64,000 nucleotides of DNA, from contig NZ_CAKZKO010000038.1 of the NCBI RefSeq assembly GCF_937123705.1, positions 124,001 to 188,000 on the forward strand, given 5' to 3'. A program made the position numbers and the translations under genes. Each line of letters opens with the position of its first letter. The first letter of the stretch is position 1. This stretch comes from an uncultured Paraglaciecola sp. (GTDB taxonomy: Bacteria > Pseudomonadota > Gammaproteobacteria > Enterobacterales > Alteromonadaceae). Below the pieces are notes generated by a model. The model saw nothing but the letters and a program-made list of their open reading frames with translations, was not told the origin of the DNA and did no database searches. Shown here in pieces: positions 25,316-62,412 of the stretch.

Positions 25316-26284
25316 TTAGCCTCCTAGCATAGCCAAGTGTTTGGTGGCTCCGGTAAAACCATCTTGCAGCCAATGGGTGGCTTCTTTATCGCCAAGTAAA
25401 TCAACTAACTTAGCTTGTAATTCGCCGCTATCAGCTGATTGTAATGCGGGCCTAATATCTAGACCTTGGTCGGCAAACAAACATAGATGTAGCTTACCCG
25501 TTGCTGAAATTCGGAGTCGATTGCAGCTGGCACAAAAATCTTTGCTGTAGGGCATGATCAAGCCAATTTTGCCTTGGTAATCTGGATGGAAAAATTCTTG
25601 TGCGGGCCCAGCTGCTTTATCGCGAATAAGTTGTCCCCAGCCTGCGTCTAATAATTGCTGTTTAATGGGTGCACCAGATACATGATTTTTTTCAAAAAAG
25701 GTGACGTTATCACCAGTCTGCATCAGCTCAATTAATCGCAATGTGACTGGCGTCGCTTGCAGCCAAGTTAGAAAGTTCTTCAGTTCTTGCTGGTTGTATT
25801 GTTTCATCAACACCGCGTTGATTTTAACTTTTACGCCCAAGGCAATGGCTTTGTCGATACCTCTGAGAATGGTTTCGAGTTTATTGTGGCCGGTAATAGT
25901 GGCAAACATGCGGGGATCTAAGCTATCAATACTGATGTTAAGGGAATTTAAGCCCGCATCGACCCATTTTTGAATGTCAGCCTCTAACTTATAGCCATTA
26001 CTGGTCATGGCCACATGTTTTATGCCCGGAGTAGATGCACAAGCCCTTATAATGTCGGGTAAGTCTTTTCTGAGAGAGGGTTCGCCGCCCGTGATACGCA
26101 CTTTGCTGGTGCCTAAGGCCGCAAATCCATTTACTAGGGTTTTAATCTCAACTAAGCTCAAAAAATCACGACTGCTATCGCAGGCATAACCATCTGGCAG
26201 GCAGTAATTGCATTTAAAATTACATACGTCTGTAATAGACAGCCGCAAATAATGGAAACGGCGTCCAAATTTATCTTCTAACAT
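25316..26284 (-). CDS. moaA: GTP 3',8-cyclase MoaA (radical SAM)
   Basis: 322 residues from the ATG at 26284, the normal MoaA length; a TTG 31 codons upstream only extends into the leader. Radical-SAM cysteines are Cys21, Cys25 and Cys28 (VCNFKCNYC). The second cluster is formed by CASCNRLR and KLHLC near residues 250-275, and the C-terminus is the required Gly-Gly (LAMLGG). It catalyses the first step of Moco synthesis. First gene of moaA-mobA-moaB-moaC-moaD-moaE, with mobA starting 5 bp after its stop. The structured leader at 26285-26445 probably regulates it. Confidence 0.97.
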   Translation of the reverse strand: MLEDKFGRRFHYLRLSITDVCNFKCNYCLPDGYACDSSRDFLSLVEIKTLVNGFAALGTSKVRITGGEPSLRKDLPDIIRACASTPGIKHVAMTSNGYKLEADIQKWVDAGLNSLNISIDSLDPRMFATITGHNKLETILRGIDKAIALGVKVKINAVLMKQYNQQELKNFLTWLQATPVTLRLIELMQTGDNVTFFEKNHVSGAPIKQQLLDAGWGQLIRDKAAGPAQEFFHPDYQGKIGLIMPYSKDFCASCNRLRISATGKLHLCLFADQGLDIRPALQSADSGELQAKLVDLLGDKEATHWLQDGFTGATKHLAMLGG

Positions 26285-26445
26285 GTTTATTAACACCTTT
26301 CCAAAGTGAAGTAACACAATATTGTGGCACTTGCGGGAGGCAGTTCGATTTCTCTTACTACCCTGGCGAATTGGCAAAACTTGCCATATTCACGGCTAAA
26401 TTACCTTGTCGTGGATTTAGGTAAAGAAGCTCGGAGTTATCCATA
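26285..26445 (-). ncRNA. Structured moaA leader, candidate Moco riboswitch
   Basis: On the minus strand, the roughly 160 bases ahead of the moaA ATG contain conserved-looking segments ACTCCGAGC and GCCTCCCGCAAGTGCCA. They also contain short hairpins (TGGCAA/TTGCCA at 26372-26377 and 26381-26386; TTACC/GGTAA further out) and a palindrome CACAATATTGTG (26315-26326) before the start. moaA operons in gammaproteobacteria often carry the Moco RNA motif at this position, and the CTCCGAGC/CCTCCCG pair recalls it. I could not align it to the Rfam model. Confidence 0.42.
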
Positions 26446-26473
26446 GGTTATTTGTAGTAAAAACAAATAACCT
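26445..26473. promoter_or_regulatory. Perfect 11-bp-arm inverted repeat upstream of moaA, possible ModE-like operator
   Basis: AGGTTATTTGT (26445-26455), 7-base spacer, ACAAATAACCT (26463-26473). It lies upstream of the moaA leader and 104 bp before the divergent glycerate-kinase-like gene. GTTAT...ATAAC arms with about a 7-base spacer resemble ModE sites of E. coli, where ModE controls moa transcription. No modE gene is in this window. Confidence 0.4.
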
Positions 26474-56977: not shown

Positions 56978-57514
56978 TCAAAAATTGTTTTGAATCAATT
57001 TTACGAGCCGGATTATTTTAATATTCGATAACTGACGATAGTCAAAATAGGGGCAGACTAGCAGTTTAAGGTGAGTATTTAAGGCAAATTCGTGATCTAG
57101 CCAGTGCAATGTGCACGGCAAGTTGAGAGATTTTGCGTATGTTTTGCCCATAACAATATATACAGAATGGCTATTACTAGACTTAACATCAATTAGTTGA
57201 GGAGGTGAAAAGAGCAAGTTAGTGTTAGAGAGACTTTGCAATAATGTGTGATCTCTATATTCCTGCCAACTTTGCGCGCCTTGTAATGCCACTATATTTT
57301 CTGCATTAAGCGCAAATACCAGTTTGGCATAGACATTAAACACTTTACGCCAACCGTTGCCACAGGCTTGACCAATACTATGGATCTCACCTGCAGACAG
57401 CGGTTTTGTTAAGTCTAGGTTTGAATATTCAGAAATACTCGGGTAATTGCCAATATACACATTGAACTGGGCGTTTGGATCGCCCAGTCCAAATTGACGT
57501 TTCTGTTGCAACAC
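56978..57514 (-). CDS. Uncharacterised cytosolic protein
   Basis: 178 residues with no signal or membrane segments. Begins LQQKRQFGLGDPNAQFNVYIGNYPSISEYSNLDL and contains HSIGQACGNGWRKVFNVYAKLVFALN. I do not recognise a characterised family. The start is a GTG that abuts the DUF2750 stop (TAAGTG), with no other start until deep in the protein. It is translated directly behind the DUF2750 gene, so a shared role is likely but unknown. Confidence 0.6.
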   Translation of the reverse strand: MLQQKRQFGLGDPNAQFNVYIGNYPSISEYSNLDLTKPLSAGEIHSIGQACGNGWRKVFNVYAKLVFALNAENIVALQGAQSWQEYRDHTLLQSLSNTNLLFSPPQLIDVKSSNSHSVYIVMGKTYAKSLNLPCTLHWLDHEFALNTHLKLLVCPYFDYRQLSNIKIIRLVKLIQNNF

Positions 57515-57922
57515 TTAACTTAGGCCACTTTCTCCAAGTTTTTTTAAGTCGTCTTCTATACAAGCTATCATCTCGTCGGCTTCAAGCATGATCCCTTCTT
57601 CGTCATCTCCTAAAGGAAAAACCAGCACTAAGGTATTGTTATTTTTCATGCCTGGAAGCCAAGTTTCAATCCAATCCACAAAATCAATTTGCTTGGCTTG
57701 GCATGTAGGAAACTCATCCTTAACCCAAGCCTCAGCAAATTCTTTATGTGGCCAAATAGGTATGCAGGCATCGTCATCAGCCTTAAGCATCACCCAACCA
57801 CTTTCACCATATAATCCCCAAAGACTTTGTTCTTCAATCATTTTTGATAACGCATATTCAAAACGCAACTCGGGTAACATCTTACTGAGGTCGAGAAAGT
57901 GTTCAGGTGAAATTTCATTCAT
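57515..57922 (-). CDS. DUF2750 family protein
   Basis: 135 residues. The pattern LPELRFEYALSKMIEEQSLWGLYGESGWVMLKADDDACIPIWPHKEFAEAW ... FVDWIETWLPGM ... LVLVFPLGDDEEGIMLEADEM is that of DUF2750, small acidic cytosolic proteins of unknown function. First gene of a pair with the uncharacterised 178-residue protein. Confidence 0.82.
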   Translation of the reverse strand: MNEISPEHFLDLSKMLPELRFEYALSKMIEEQSLWGLYGESGWVMLKADDDACIPIWPHKEFAEAWVKDEFPTCQAKQIDFVDWIETWLPGMKNNNTLVLVFPLGDDEEGIMLEADEMIACIEDDLKKLGESGLS

Positions 57923-58029: not shown

Positions 58030-61000
58030 ATGTCAATCGAAACTGACCCACAGAATACCCCAACTCGTGCTCAAGCTCCAAAGAGTAAAACCTGGGTTTA
58101 TCTATTAGTTATTGTTTTAGCTCTATCGGGTTTTGGGTATTTTAGCTTATTAAATCGTTCGAGTGCTTCGATTAATCATGATTATTACCGAGTATTATAC
58201 GAAGCTTCCAATAAGTTTAATGAGAACCTCAATACTTTAAATAGCATGCATCAATCAGAAGAAAGCGTTACTTCCATTCGGGCGTTGTTGCCAAGCTACT
58301 CAAGAGAATCATCGTCAAACAAAAAGCTACTCCCTGAGTCATACAAATATCAACTCATTGGACAACAAATAAAGATATCGAATCAAGATTTTGTCGCCTT
58401 TATTGAGCTACCTGACTTATTACCTAATACTACTGATGGCTTCAGCCAATATTTGTTTGCCGACAACTCTGGCAAAGTGGTGGCCAATACTGGTGGTGAA
58501 AAGACCATTTCAATAGTCGAAATGAAAAGTATAAATAAACAAATATTGCAGAAAAACAAATTCTCTGCATTAAGTTTCAATCCTCAGAAGATGAGCGATG
58601 AATCATTAGAAAATGCCACTTTGCCAACATTTAGCAGCCATGTGGATATGCAGCTATCCTATGGCGACTTTAGAATTTTCATCTTTCCTTTTACCTTATC
58701 TACTCCTCTTAACATAACAAGTTCCGACAAAAACACAGGTGCACTACTAGAACGGCTGTATTTAGTTGGTTTGTTGCCTAAGCATAGATTAGATAATAAG
58801 GGGAGCGGACACTGGAATATCTCAGTCTTGGTGGTTAGTTTAATCAGCCTACTTTTTATGTGGGCACTGATCAGATTATTTTTGTTACCTGATAACCAAT
58901 CCATCACTAAGTTTTATCGAATATTAACTCAATCGGCTAGTTATGGGTTTTATATTGTCTTGGTAGCATTGATATTGTCTTACTTAACTAAAAGTGGCTT
59001 GCAGTCTTATAAACAACAAGCCGCCACGCAGTACGCCACAGAGCTGGCCGACAACTTAAAACAAGATTTGAAAGAAGTGTTTAATGAGGTGTCATCTTAT
59101 CGAGGATTTTATAGCTCTACTATTGCACAGCTAAATAAATTAAAACCTATAACCTCAGGAGATCAAAACAGTTCCACGCCAAAAACGTACAAGTGGTCAT
59201 ATGAAAAAACCGTTGCTGCATTAAATAATGCCTTGCGTGAGCTGGCCAAAGATCGTTCGACTTGTGTCAACTGCACCATAGACAAGCCTATACCCCATAT
59301 TATGGCAAGTGACCAATGGCACACCAAACTAGGCGCAGACTACAATGCAACACGCTGGGAAAATGTGGTGAATATCAAAAATAGGGTCGATCGCCTTAGT
59401 CAGCAGATCGCCAAAAATGACGTATTACCCGCTGCGACAATATTGCAAGATTCCTACGAAAAAGATCCCCAACAACTGGGTGTCATTAGTTTCTATTCAG
59501 GTGAGTTGCAAGCAGAGTTTGACCACGAAGCTGAGGTATTCAATACCCACATTCCACGCTCTGCCATAAAGCAACAGGACGAGAATAATGCTTCTGCCTA
59601 TACTGCTCAAAAGATTTTCACTATTTTTGCTACTAACGAAAAAGGCTTTGCCAATCTACCTTCTATTTATTTTCAAGAATCAAATTCCAAGCCACAGGCA
59701 TTTTCACTATTACATCGAGAATACTTCAAAAGAGTACGAGATTATCGAGGCTGGCTATTGGATTTTTCAGATAAAAAAACCGTATCCAAGTACCTAACAC
59801 CAGAGCAATGGCAAACTTCAGTCGAAGATTCTAAATCAATGAATGATGTGGTGTTTCGAAATGTCTATATACAGCGTCTTCTAAACATCAATGATGGAAC
59901 AAGAGGAACCACTATATCCGTGCCAATGCATCAGCCTAATCTAAATATGCCGATAGATATGTCGGTTGCTGGCTACGTATTAGGTGCCGACGTTATTCTT
60001 CCATCAGTCAGCCTTGCCCCACCGTCTAAATTTGATTTTGTATTTATGGTGGTCGATAGAAACACCGGAGAGGTACTATTTCACAGCGATGAAGATCGCT
60101 CCTTAGTTGAAAATTTGTTCTACGCTGGACACAGTGAATCACACTTAAGTCAATGGATTAAAGCAGGGTTAGATGTACATCCCAAGCTAGGAGGCAATCA
60201 AATTAATGGCTTCTATCATGGGGAAGCGGGCCATTACACCTTAACCCCTACAATAGTCGACAATTGGGCCATGGTGGTGTTCTCACCTAGTGACAGCCTA
60301 GATAGTTTTATGACCAATCAATTTATCTACATTTTAGTCACCTTTGTATTGTTACTTAGCCTGATTCTATTGTTCGCAAAAATAGCCCAACATTGGGCAT
60401 CGACACGGTGGATAAGAATAAACCTTGGATTGCCTCAACCATTAGATACCAAGCGTGTCATGTTAATTTGCACCGCTATTTTCACCACTAATTATGGCTT
60501 ATTTTACATCGGTCAACTGTTACAAATGAGCTTCCCTAACAGCCCCTTAAGCTGGTTTTTCTCTCCGGTTATTCCATTGCTTGGAATGGCCGCATTATTG
60601 GTTATGCTGTATCGATTTTATTTACATCATTTTGTACCAAACAATCATGATATGTCTGCCATTAGGAAGTTTACTAAAGGCGCCAAGTTATTTTCTCTTT
60701 GTTTATGGTTAGTGGCCTTAACACATTTTGCCTACTTACAATTTAGTGCAGCTATGCCGTTGAAAAGTCTACAGTTCTATTATTCTCAACAAGAGTGTAA
60801 TGGCATTAATAAGGAGTATGGCGAATTGACACAAATGGCATTAAAACGCTTTCCAAACTCAGTAACGCAACAACGGATCCCGCCATTTTTATTATTGCCC
60901 ATGGAAGACCAATGGCAACAAACCATGCTGGCCAAAAATGCGGCAAAACAAACAAAATCAGGATTGTGCGAGGGTTATTTGTCTTCAGTTGAGCCTCAAG

Positions 61001-62412
61001 ATTACCCCAAAATGAGCACCTTAGTGGGCTCTACTTATCTATGGAAATGGATGAAAACATACTTAATAAACGCCACATTAGACAACAACAAGTTAGATCA
61101 CAACCTATCAAAAACCAACCCTGAGTACGACATCATATTATGCTCTATTTTGATCTTGTTGGGCTTAGTATGGGTATGGTTCTATTTCAATCGAAAAGTG
61201 TTGTGGCCGCGTATTTATTGCCCAAGCGGCTTCTTAAGACATATTCAGGAACTGTGCTCATCTGTGTCTAATATGTCTCATGAACAACCCAGCCGACTAT
61301 TGATGATACAGGTGGACAGCCACAAATTATCAGGTGTAGGTTTAGCCTTATTATTGCGCAATCAAGAAGCGCAAAATCGTAATAAAGGAGAAAACAGTAC
61401 CGAAGAATTATTACCGGGATTTGAGCATTTATTCCAACTTAGTCCTTGTTTGCAAATGTTCAGTGTCAACAATACGTTTTTACCAAACTTAAAAATCAAC
61501 CTAAGTATCGACAATGATTCAGGGCTACTCATTGTCAAGATTTGGGACATTGAAACTTGCTTAGAAAAGATTGAATTTAGACAACATTTGCTAGATATGA
61601 TCATGGAAATAAAGTCTCTCACTATGTCGGGGAATTTACACAGTTTTACCCTTTACTCAGGCTTTATGAGCCTGCGAAGAGTTAAGATGAAAGATCCCCT
61701 TGCTAAAACATCCAACTCTGTTTTAGAGCATACTGAGTATATGTCTTGGTCTGAATGCCTAATGGATTTTTCGGTGAAAGTTACTCATGAGTTTGTGCAT
61801 AATATTGATGCCGATTTTTTATATAATGAATTAAAAGATGTCCCTGAATTACGTTTTTTAAGCAAACAATTGCCTAAAGACGCGCAACTGCATAGCGAGC
61901 ACATTCCCGCTACGCGCTTTTGGCAAAGAGACAGCAACAGTATTAAAAGCACCGAATGGGCGACTATCCACTATATTTTGCTACATGCAGACGCGCTGTA
62001 TCGATTTAAATGGGAGTCTTGTTCTAGTGCCGAAAAACTCGCCTTGTATAACTTGGCGAAACAACACCGCCTTAACCCTAGTAATACCGAAATGATCGAA
62101 CATTTAGCCATTAACGGTATGATCAAAGTGCGTCATGATCATCTGGCAATAATCAATAAAAGTTTTGCACATTTTGTATTACACGCTGAATCAACAGATA
62201 CACTACGTCAATTGGTAAGAGAAGGAGAAGCTGGTATTTGGAAGAGTTATCGTATTCCCCTTGGGATGCTAATTGTGCTCATCATAGGTGGCGTGGCCGT
62301 CACCTCTGGTCAATCGATTTTTATTATCGCCGCGTCCCTAGCTGGCGTGTTAGGCACTATTGGTAGCTTAACCAATAGCGCCAGCATGCTTAAGGGACAA
62401 TTTAAGGAATAG
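58030..62412 (+). CDS. Large multi-membrane sensor-like protein, uncharacterised (1460 residues)
   Basis: 1460 residues. Predicted helices at about 22-41, 263-287, 304-322, 763-785, 809-832, 841-862, 885-908, 1033-1053 and 1409-1445. The stretch 323-762 is likely extracytoplasmic and has a dCache-like ending (VFMVVDRNTGEVLFHSDEDRSLVENLFYA). Residues 1054-1406 are cytoplasmic. The end of this part (KLALYNLAKQHRLNPSNTEMIEHLAINGMIKV...NKSFAHFVLHAE) recalls the winged-helix that follows NTPase domains in large membrane signalling proteins, and KSYRIPLGMLIVLIIGGVAV ends with the final helix pair. The P-loop position reads SHKLSGVGLALLLRN, without GxxxxGK[ST], so a degenerate NTPase is suspected. 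Followed by an M1 peptidase, start 100 bp downstream. Confidence 0.6.
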   Translation: MSIETDPQNTPTRAQAPKSKTWVYLLVIVLALSGFGYFSLLNRSSASINHDYYRVLYEASNKFNENLNTLNSMHQSEESVTSIRALLPSYSRESSSNKKLLPESYKYQLIGQQIKISNQDFVAFIELPDLLPNTTDGFSQYLFADNSGKVVANTGGEKTISIVEMKSINKQILQKNKFSALSFNPQKMSDESLENATLPTFSSHVDMQLSYGDFRIFIFPFTLSTPLNITSSDKNTGALLERLYLVGLLPKHRLDNKGSGHWNISVLVVSLISLLFMWALIRLFLLPDNQSITKFYRILTQSASYGFYIVLVALILSYLTKSGLQSYKQQAATQYATELADNLKQDLKEVFNEVSSYRGFYSSTIAQLNKLKPITSGDQNSSTPKTYKWSYEKTVAALNNALRELAKDRSTCVNCTIDKPIPHIMASDQWHTKLGADYNATRWENVVNIKNRVDRLSQQIAKNDVLPAATILQDSYEKDPQQLGVISFYSGELQAEFDHEAEVFNTHIPRSAIKQQDENNASAYTAQKIFTIFATNEKGFANLPSIYFQESNSKPQAFSLLHREYFKRVRDYRGWLLDFSDKKTVSKYLTPEQWQTSVEDSKSMNDVVFRNVYIQRLLNINDGTRGTTISVPMHQPNLNMPIDMSVAGYVLGADVILPSVSLAPPSKFDFVFMVVDRNTGEVLFHSDEDRSLVENLFYAGHSESHLSQWIKAGLDVHPKLGGNQINGFYHGEAGHYTLTPTIVDNWAMVVFSPSDSLDSFMTNQFIYILVTFVLLLSLILLFAKIAQHWASTRWIRINLGLPQPLDTKRVMLICTAIFTTNYGLFYIGQLLQMSFPNSPLSWFFSPVIPLLGMAALLVMLYRFYLHHFVPNNHDMSAIRKFTKGAKLFSLCLWLVALTHFAYLQFSAAMPLKSLQFYYSQQECNGINKEYGELTQMALKRFPNSVTQQRIPPFLLLPMEDQWQQTMLAKNAAKQTKSGLCEGYLSSVEPQDYPKMSTLVGSTYLWKWMKTYLINATLDNNKLDHNLSKTNPEYDIILCSILILLGLVWVWFYFNRKVLWPRIYCPSGFLRHIQELCSSVSNMSHEQPSRLLMIQVDSHKLSGVGLALLLRNQEAQNRNKGENSTEELLPGFEHLFQLSPCLQMFSVNNTFLPNLKINLSIDNDSGLLIVKIWDIETCLEKIEFRQHLLDMIMEIKSLTMSGNLHSFTLYSGFMSLRRVKMKDPLAKTSNSVLEHTEYMSWSECLMDFSVKVTHEFVHNIDADFLYNELKDVPELRFLSKQLPKDAQLHSEHIPATRFWQRDSNSIKSTEWATIHYILLHADALYRFKWESCSSAEKLALYNLAKQHRLNPSNTEMIEHLAINGMIKVRHDHLAIINKSFAHFVLHAESTDTLRQLVREGEAGIWKSYRIPLGMLIVLIIGGVAVTSGQSIFIIAASLAGVLGTIGSLTNSASMLKGQFKE

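Follow-up and report, generated by a model that had tools for sequence, protein, structure and literature searches.

The 64,000-nucleotide stretch of DNA analysed here (the window) belongs to contig C38 of the 5.57-Mb genome of an uncultured Paraglaciecola sp. and carries, at positions 58030–62412 of the forward strand, an open reading frame (ORF) for a 1460-residue membrane protein, which we propose to be a dCache receptor whose cytoplasmic module probably derives from a STAND-type NTPase. The ORF starts with ATG and runs uninterrupted. Of 147 related genomes searched at the protein level, 26, its own included, gave a match, and comparison with the closest homologue (L057) gives dN 0.133, dS 2.68 and dN/dS ~0.05 (nonsynonymous and synonymous divergence; dS is near saturation and the ratios are rough); this recurrence and the low dN relative to dS argue that the ORF is no chance frame. 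Sequence comparison further indicates that the gene is under purifying selection. Full-length relatives are present in 14 of the 26 genomes (group A, the subgroup containing the window protein; the 13 others at 32–79% identity), and distant relatives of 1398–1906 residues in the remaining 12 (group B), 11 of which align at 17–19% identity over full length, L055 resting on its C-terminal match alone. In a protein tree, the window protein clusters with Paraglaciecola sequences.

Hydropathy identifies nine transmembrane (TM) segments (residues 23–41, 266–284, 298–316, 765–783, 842–860, 887–905, 1035–1053, 1409–1427 and 1430–1448), and a tenth, at ~807–834, is seen as a helix in the predicted model of residues 756–1460, giving about ten membrane helices in total. 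ORF, hydropathy and model thus agree with the length and helix layout described in an earlier note on this DNA. With the N-terminus taken as inside, TM alternation would place residues 42–265, 317–764 and 907–1034 in the periplasm and residues 1054–1408 in the cytoplasm. The features of the gene, with residue numbers and the basis of each assignment in brackets, are as follows.

58030..62412, + strand: whole gene for the 1460-residue membrane protein (ORF; matches in 26/147 genomes)
58096..58152, + strand: TM1 (23–41; hydropathy, model helix 18–75)
58153..58824, + strand: predicted first periplasmic domain (42–265; model, order of elements)
58825..58977, + strand: TM2–TM3 hairpin (266–316; hydropathy)
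58978..60321, + strand: predicted dCache periplasmic sensor (317–764; Foldseek, VIA-align)
60322..60747, + strand: TM4–TM7 (765–906; hydropathy, model)
60748..61131, + strand: predicted third periplasmic segment, helical, partly of low confidence (907–1034; model, conservation)
61132..61188, + strand: TM8 (1035–1053; hydropathy)
61267..61779, + strand: predicted P-loop-NTPase-like core (1080–1250; strand and helix order in the model, seven structural rows spanning the core)
61315..61341, + strand: loop at the Walker A position, no GK[ST] (1096–1104; alignment, after the first cytoplasmic strand)
61528..61554, + strand: Walker-B-like strand with D1173 and E1175 (alignments)
61780..61944, + strand: predicted helical lid (1251–1305; model, P1272 in 28/34 sequences)
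61945..62193, + strand: predicted winged helix (1306–1388; VIA-align, 13 positions identical in 34/34 sequences)
62254..62373, + strand: C-terminal TM hairpin TM9–TM10 (1409–1448; hydropathy, conservation)

The ectodomain was compared with known structures by means of a predicted model of residues 1–795 (mean predicted local distance difference test score (pLDDT) 73, predicted template modelling score (pTM) 0.69). The comparison reveals a double PAS-like fold with a long N-terminal helix, the hallmark of dCache domains, at residues 317–764. The best PDB match in Foldseek is 7k5n, with an expectation value (E) of 1.0e-5, and all 16 matches at E ≤ 0.001 carry the titles of sensor or ligand-binding domains, taken from chemoreceptors, histidine kinases or GGDEF/cyclase proteins. 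In VIA-align, the best row is 8w7p_A (Z 11.8, root mean square deviation (RMSD) 4.0, 225 aligned residues), and of the best 50 rows (Z 11.8–9.5) 48 have titles that name chemoreceptors, kinases or cyclases; one of the remaining two is an extracellular ligand-binding receptor, the other a calcium-channel alpha2-delta complex. By hydropathy the domain lies between two TM helices (TM3 and TM4), as dCache sensors do, and the alternation given above would set it on the periplasmic side. The predicted assignment of residues 317–764 as a dCache sensor is thus well supported by structure comparison, and the Cache-like ectodomain foreseen in the earlier note holds. Sequence profiles point weakly to the same family: Pfam dCache_1 matches 4 of 14 homologues in one set (best E 1.5e-4) and 1 of 14 in another (6.6e-6), the two sets sharing three members. 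The dCache_1 cut-off of 45 bits, a sensitivity limit and not a defining feature, was reached neither by the window protein, which had no match, nor by two scored homologues (15.9 and 16.6 bits), and the N-terminal parts of ten group A members, several of them shared with the second set, gave no dCache_1 match at E ≤ 0.01. Against PDB sequences, the N-terminal profile returned the dCache entry 7k5n at E 0.36 among rows mainly of the chance type, and a mixed profile returned two chance-type rows. Twelve residues of the domain (R563, Y565, R616, N619, P632, G680, H685, R690, E694, N695, Y729 and G731) are identical in 25/25 family sequences, and D654 in 22 of the 25. R563, Y565, R616, N619 and D654 are candidates for comparison with the residues through which dCache_1AA sensors bind amino acids. 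C412, also within this domain, is present in 24/25.

Residues 42–265, between TM1 and TM2, form a further folded domain in the same model, one that the earlier note did not mention. It is probably a second, smaller periplasmic sensor-like domain, and its modelled element order suggests a likeness to a single Cache/PAS-like domain. C923 and C980, both within the third periplasmic segment, are each kept in 19/22 group A sequences and may form a disulfide. The protein thus resembles dCache-type receptors (chemoreceptors such as PctA, histidine kinases and diguanylate cyclases) in its double-Cache fold flanked by TM helices, yet differs from them in lacking a Pfam-recognised output domain: a Pfam scan of the window protein returned nothing, including no methyl-accepting, kinase or cyclase domain, and NCBIfam and PDB-sequence scans of it gave one chance-level match each.

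The cytoplasmic module was compared in the same way, using the model of residues 756–1460 (mean pLDDT 70, pTM 0.49), in which the blocks of the core have pLDDT values of 74–91 except for three (58, 49 and 51) and those of the winged helix 76–90. The modelled core comprises a strand (1088–1095), a helix, two strands (1155–1160 and 1167–1172), a helix, a strand (1203–1210) and a short strand (1247–1250); lid helices follow, and then a winged helix from ~1307 to 1384. This succession of core, lid and winged helix (residues ~1080–1388) is the order found in STAND NTPases (NB-ARC, NACHT, nSTAND1, MalT and Avs4), and the structural ranking points the same way, as STAND-type proteins take 12 of the first 13 places in VIA-align. 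The module thus resembles the switch of immune proteins in plants and animals. The top rows are RPP1 (Z 9.0, RMSD 4.2, 103 aligned residues; the row spans 324–645 in model numbering), 2qen (8.7, 4.3, 105) and Roq1 (8.4, 4.6, 107); lower rows include Apaf-1, NLRP9, NAIP5-NLRC4, Avs4 and the maltose-system entry 8bob, which we take to be MalT, and we likewise assume that 2qen and 2fna are STAND-like. The core is also spanned by rows 1, 2, 4, 12 and 35, all STAND-type, and by rows 41 and 48, both human ORC (RMSD ~16). A winged-helix-like segment followed by a terminal membrane pair had been proposed earlier, and both are recovered here, the former in the model (1306–1388) and the latter as TM9–TM10. 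These comparisons suggest that the core–lid–winged-helix module probably descended from a STAND-type NTPase that lost its Walker A motif. Unlike STAND NTPases, the window protein is a multipass membrane protein with no Walker A and no significant sequence similarity to them.

The nucleotide site was followed through the family by alignment, the 34 aligned modules comprising 22 of group A and 12 of group B. GxxxxGK[ST] occurs in none of 25 family members, the window's included, and in an enlarged, overlapping set of 38 different sequences in L083 only, directly behind TM3 at residue 411; since 5% of shuffled sequences contain the motif, this lone string stands at chance frequency. The earlier note had remarked that the expected P-loop lacks the Lys-Ser/Thr of Walker A, and residues 1096–1104 indeed hold no GK[ST]; the motif is likewise absent from the module of every homologue checked, and the search for an intact P-loop elsewhere in the chain found none beyond the L083 string. 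As Walker A was looked for and not found, we do not class the protein as a STAND NTPase. In the region of the Walker B motif, hhhhD(D/E), position 1175 is acidic in 31/34 sequences and D1173 is Asp in 20/22 of group A and 0/12 of group B, R1184 and R1217 are retained in 33/34 and 32/34, respectively, and the loop at the Walker A position keeps G1102 in 22/22 and K1099 in 16/22 group A sequences. P1272 in the lid (28/34) may sit at the position of the STAND GxP motif. Together, the acidic residue, the two arginines and the group A loop residues would suit a STAND protein that is still regulated by nucleotide through a non-canonical site. The absence of a GK[ST] loop from the module of every sequence checked, and the short, unrelated loop that follows the strand in group B, make this unlikely in our judgement; a module signalling without ATP hydrolysis would fit the loss of Walker A.

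STAND descent was also assessed by hhalign, in which the 34 modules were compared with nSTAND1 (21 loci), NACHT (11) and NB-ARC (10) alignments assembled from genome searches, some NACHT and NB-ARC members being weak or cut short, which lowers the power of the test. In three alignments inspected, the Walker-B and sensor-1 strands of nSTAND1 or NACHT are paired with their counterparts in the module, a register that the module shares with these two families. Column shuffles equalled the observed score in 0, 0, 1 and 0 of 60 cases, one shuffle carrying a reused value. All 34 sequences scored 25.6 against nSTAND1 and group B alone 24.5 against NACHT, to be set beside P-loop-free control pieces that reach 21.5 and 22.2, respectively. 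The column-shuffle test favours a STAND relation, whereas the natural-segment controls weaken that support. A long nSTAND1 protein (L099–L119), which matches the whole 379-position model, occurs in 16/22 genomes of the genus, not including the window's own incomplete genome; 20 of the 21 nSTAND1 segments cut out hold an intact P-loop string.

A number of results weigh against STAND descent. Foldseek found no significant match for the cytoplasmic module, the best being RPP1 at E 0.063. When the 50 VIA-align rows are sorted by title, 20 are STAND-type, 21 are ORC/Cdc6 or RuvB and 9 are other proteins; most rest on the lid and winged helix, and by the tool's own note a Z below 8 may reflect merely a common arrangement. 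The model runs strand 2 into strand 3 without the expected helix, and its confidence is low over the TM pair and the latter half of the lid. The D1173 column is acidic in 0/12 group B sequences, with a Glu one column earlier in 6/12. The hhalign probabilities against nSTAND1, NACHT and NB-ARC do not exceed 2.1% and overlap the controls; group A alone scores 16.7, 16.0 and 16.3 against these three families, where the controls average 20.5, 20.2 and 17.9. None of the three NB-ARC comparisons reaches the control mean, 5 of 15 control pieces, including two with a true P-loop, score higher against NACHT than Cdom does (18.1), and the group B–nSTAND1 alignment falls on another region. Finally, the C-terminal module profile had no match at E ≤ 10 among PDB sequences. 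With Foldseek not significant and the profile comparisons at noise level, the STAND half of our reading is probable only. Of the STAND/AAA domain with a lost P-loop suggested earlier, the element order and the structural ranking therefore stand, whereas significance in Foldseek and support from sequence profiles do not. Resting mainly on predicted structure, STAND descent is probable, not proven.

Conservation differs between the parts of the protein. Mean identity between the window protein and 21 group A members is 68% in both the winged helix and TM9–TM10, 60% in TM2, 49% in the core, 46% in the first periplasmic domain, 39% in dCache, 38% in the third segment and lowest, at 25%, in the lid and TM5–TM7; against L057, dN/dS of the winged helix is 0.023, with dS again near saturation. 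As conservation is weighted there, we place the output in the winged helix and the hairpin, which are joined by a 20-residue linker. A conserved winged helix would also suit a membrane-bound transcription factor of the ToxR/CadC kind, in which a sensed ligand causes the winged helix to bind DNA and the core is a spacer; no region is more conserved than the winged helix and the TM hairpin. The net charge of residues 1306–1388 is only +1, though, the domain is placed between the lid and the membrane hairpin, lid and winged helix together match STAND proteins best in structure, and no Pfam helix-turn-helix (HTH) family matches convincingly (best HTH_38, 0.025, in 1/14 homologues). The winged helix of STAND proteins is usually no DNA reader. 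We regard a transcription factor as improbable.

The family is patchily distributed in Alteromonadaceae and their relatives and also occurs in Nitrosomonas. A scan of genome contigs named 29 loci, which belong to Paraglaciecola, Aliiglaciecola, Agaribacter, Aestuariibacter, Arsukibacterium, Neptunicella, Lacimicrobium and uncultured Alteromonadaceae, the remainder being two gammaproteobacterial metagenome-assembled genomes and Nitrosomonas. Profile searches, which count the window's own genome, matched 11/295 genomes of the order and, of 369 genomes of the class, the own one only; a plasmid search gave no match. The tree comprises 25 proteins, the window's and those of 24 loci; the copies at the remaining five of the 29 are split, cut or fragmentary and were excluded. 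In it, three Nitrosomonas sequences form one clade (100/100) within group A, adjoining a group of Aliiglaciecola, Agaribacter and an uncultured Alteromonadaceae (97/93); the tree fits horizontal transfer, probably between a beta- and a gammaproteobacterial lineage. The Nitrosomonas relatives (L062, L066, L079 and L080) share 50–55% identity over the C-terminal module, the split copy L066 being among those left out of the tree. Groups A and B never occur in one genome among the 26; about one co-occurrence is expected by chance, and nothing is concluded from this.

At its chromosomal site, the receptor gene diverges from a gene of the DUF2750 family, which marks the site:

57515..57922, − strand: DUF2750, divergent neighbour (annotation)
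56978..57514, − strand: DUF6942, next gene at the site (annotation)

DUF2750 is matched at 65–100% identity in 22/22 genomes of the genus, and by coordinates the receptor gene adjoins it in eight, its own included. Beside DUF2750 in 4 of the 14 other congeners (L210, L214, L215 and L217) lie N-terminal remnants of the receptor gene, and these sequences indicate that the gene was lost from the site there. No remnant was detected in the other 10 of the 14 stretches, where loss and a gene never present cannot be told apart. The aminopeptidase gene that follows the receptor gene in the window stands next to DUF2750 in 5 of the 14 (L204, L206, L213, L216 and L214, the last with the remnant in between). 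Of the genomes that lack the gene here, three have a group A copy elsewhere (G013, G016 and G020) and three a group B copy (G004, G015 and G017). At L069, recD is convergent to the receptor gene; NCBIfam identified it along with recB and recC. The annotated neighbours are mainly housekeeping genes (cysteine desulfurase, recBCD, aminopeptidase, SHMT, NqrA and enoyl reductase) and vary between loci; gene context was dropped as a functional clue for these reasons. Elsewhere in the window lies a molybdenum/tungsten cofactor riboswitch (26278–26448, − strand; RF01055, 73 bits, E 1e-15).

This patchiness and the remnants, together with a hairpin as conserved as the winged helix, would suit a membrane-damaging effector, in which the hairpin serves a protein of cell suicide or conflict that responds to an outside trigger, and perforation of membranes is given in PMC8195603 as the mode of action of some immune proteins. 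Against such an effector, PADLOC, run on the window protein alone, assigned it to 0 families, the neighbours are mainly of the housekeeping kind and the predicted sensor faces the periplasm, and we give it a small chance. The remnants in the four congeners could also point to a decaying relic without function, as could the split or degraded copies elsewhere, with frame breaks or fragments (L066, L072, L077 and L085; G232:C91, G023:C1 and G034:C23), which could reflect decay or assembly error. One long frame is kept in 24/29 loci, however, the other five being one copy cut by a contig end and four that are split or fragmentary, and purifying selection (dN/dS ~0.05) largely refutes a relic, which we consider most improbable.

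Taken together, a ligand-driven, P-loop-independent, STAND-derived switch in a transmembrane dCache receptor is the best explanation, and one we hold to be somewhat better than an even bet; our confidence is lowered because group A, taken by itself, lends STAND descent no support from sequence. The earlier note, which had allowed for signal transduction without ATP hydrolysis, is largely supported and right in substance. In ordinary STAND proteins, movement of the module is gated by ADP/ATP exchange. In the switch proposed here, the ectodomain would act as the gate instead: a small molecule would bind the predicted dCache domain and shift the membrane helices, and this shift would reposition the core–lid–winged-helix module. 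Since only the 20-residue linker separates the two, movement of the winged helix would act on the hairpin and might rearrange or oligomerise it, or expose a surface for a partner. The more specific proposal that an extracytoplasmic Cache ligand moves the winged helix of a nucleotide-free STAND switch and thereby assembles the hairpin into an oligomer or pore is tentative, and we think it may well be wrong.

Inactive STANDs are already known. According to PMC7159879 and PMC8195603, iSTAND and iSTAND2 are inactive STANDs of MoxR–vWA ternary systems, and they would share with the window protein a STAND-derived module with an eroded nucleotide site. As presented there, they form the third component next to the genes for MoxR and vWA, whereas the module described here would lie within a Cache receptor; neither paper contains the word 'Cache' in its main text. 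No MoxR or vWA gene was found among 15 annotated neighbours, a subset drawn from the window and five loci. Literature searches, with subscription papers mostly outside their reach, found no fusion of an inactive STAND with a Cache receptor. What appears new, from sequence and model, is an inactive STAND-like module as the putative output of a Cache receptor.

On the prevailing view, STAND proteins require nucleotide exchange. If the proposed reading is true, this family would offer a natural test of whether a STAND-like module that strong selection maintains without Walker A switches by ligand or mechanical input alone, and the large superfamily of Cache receptors would gain a new type of output.

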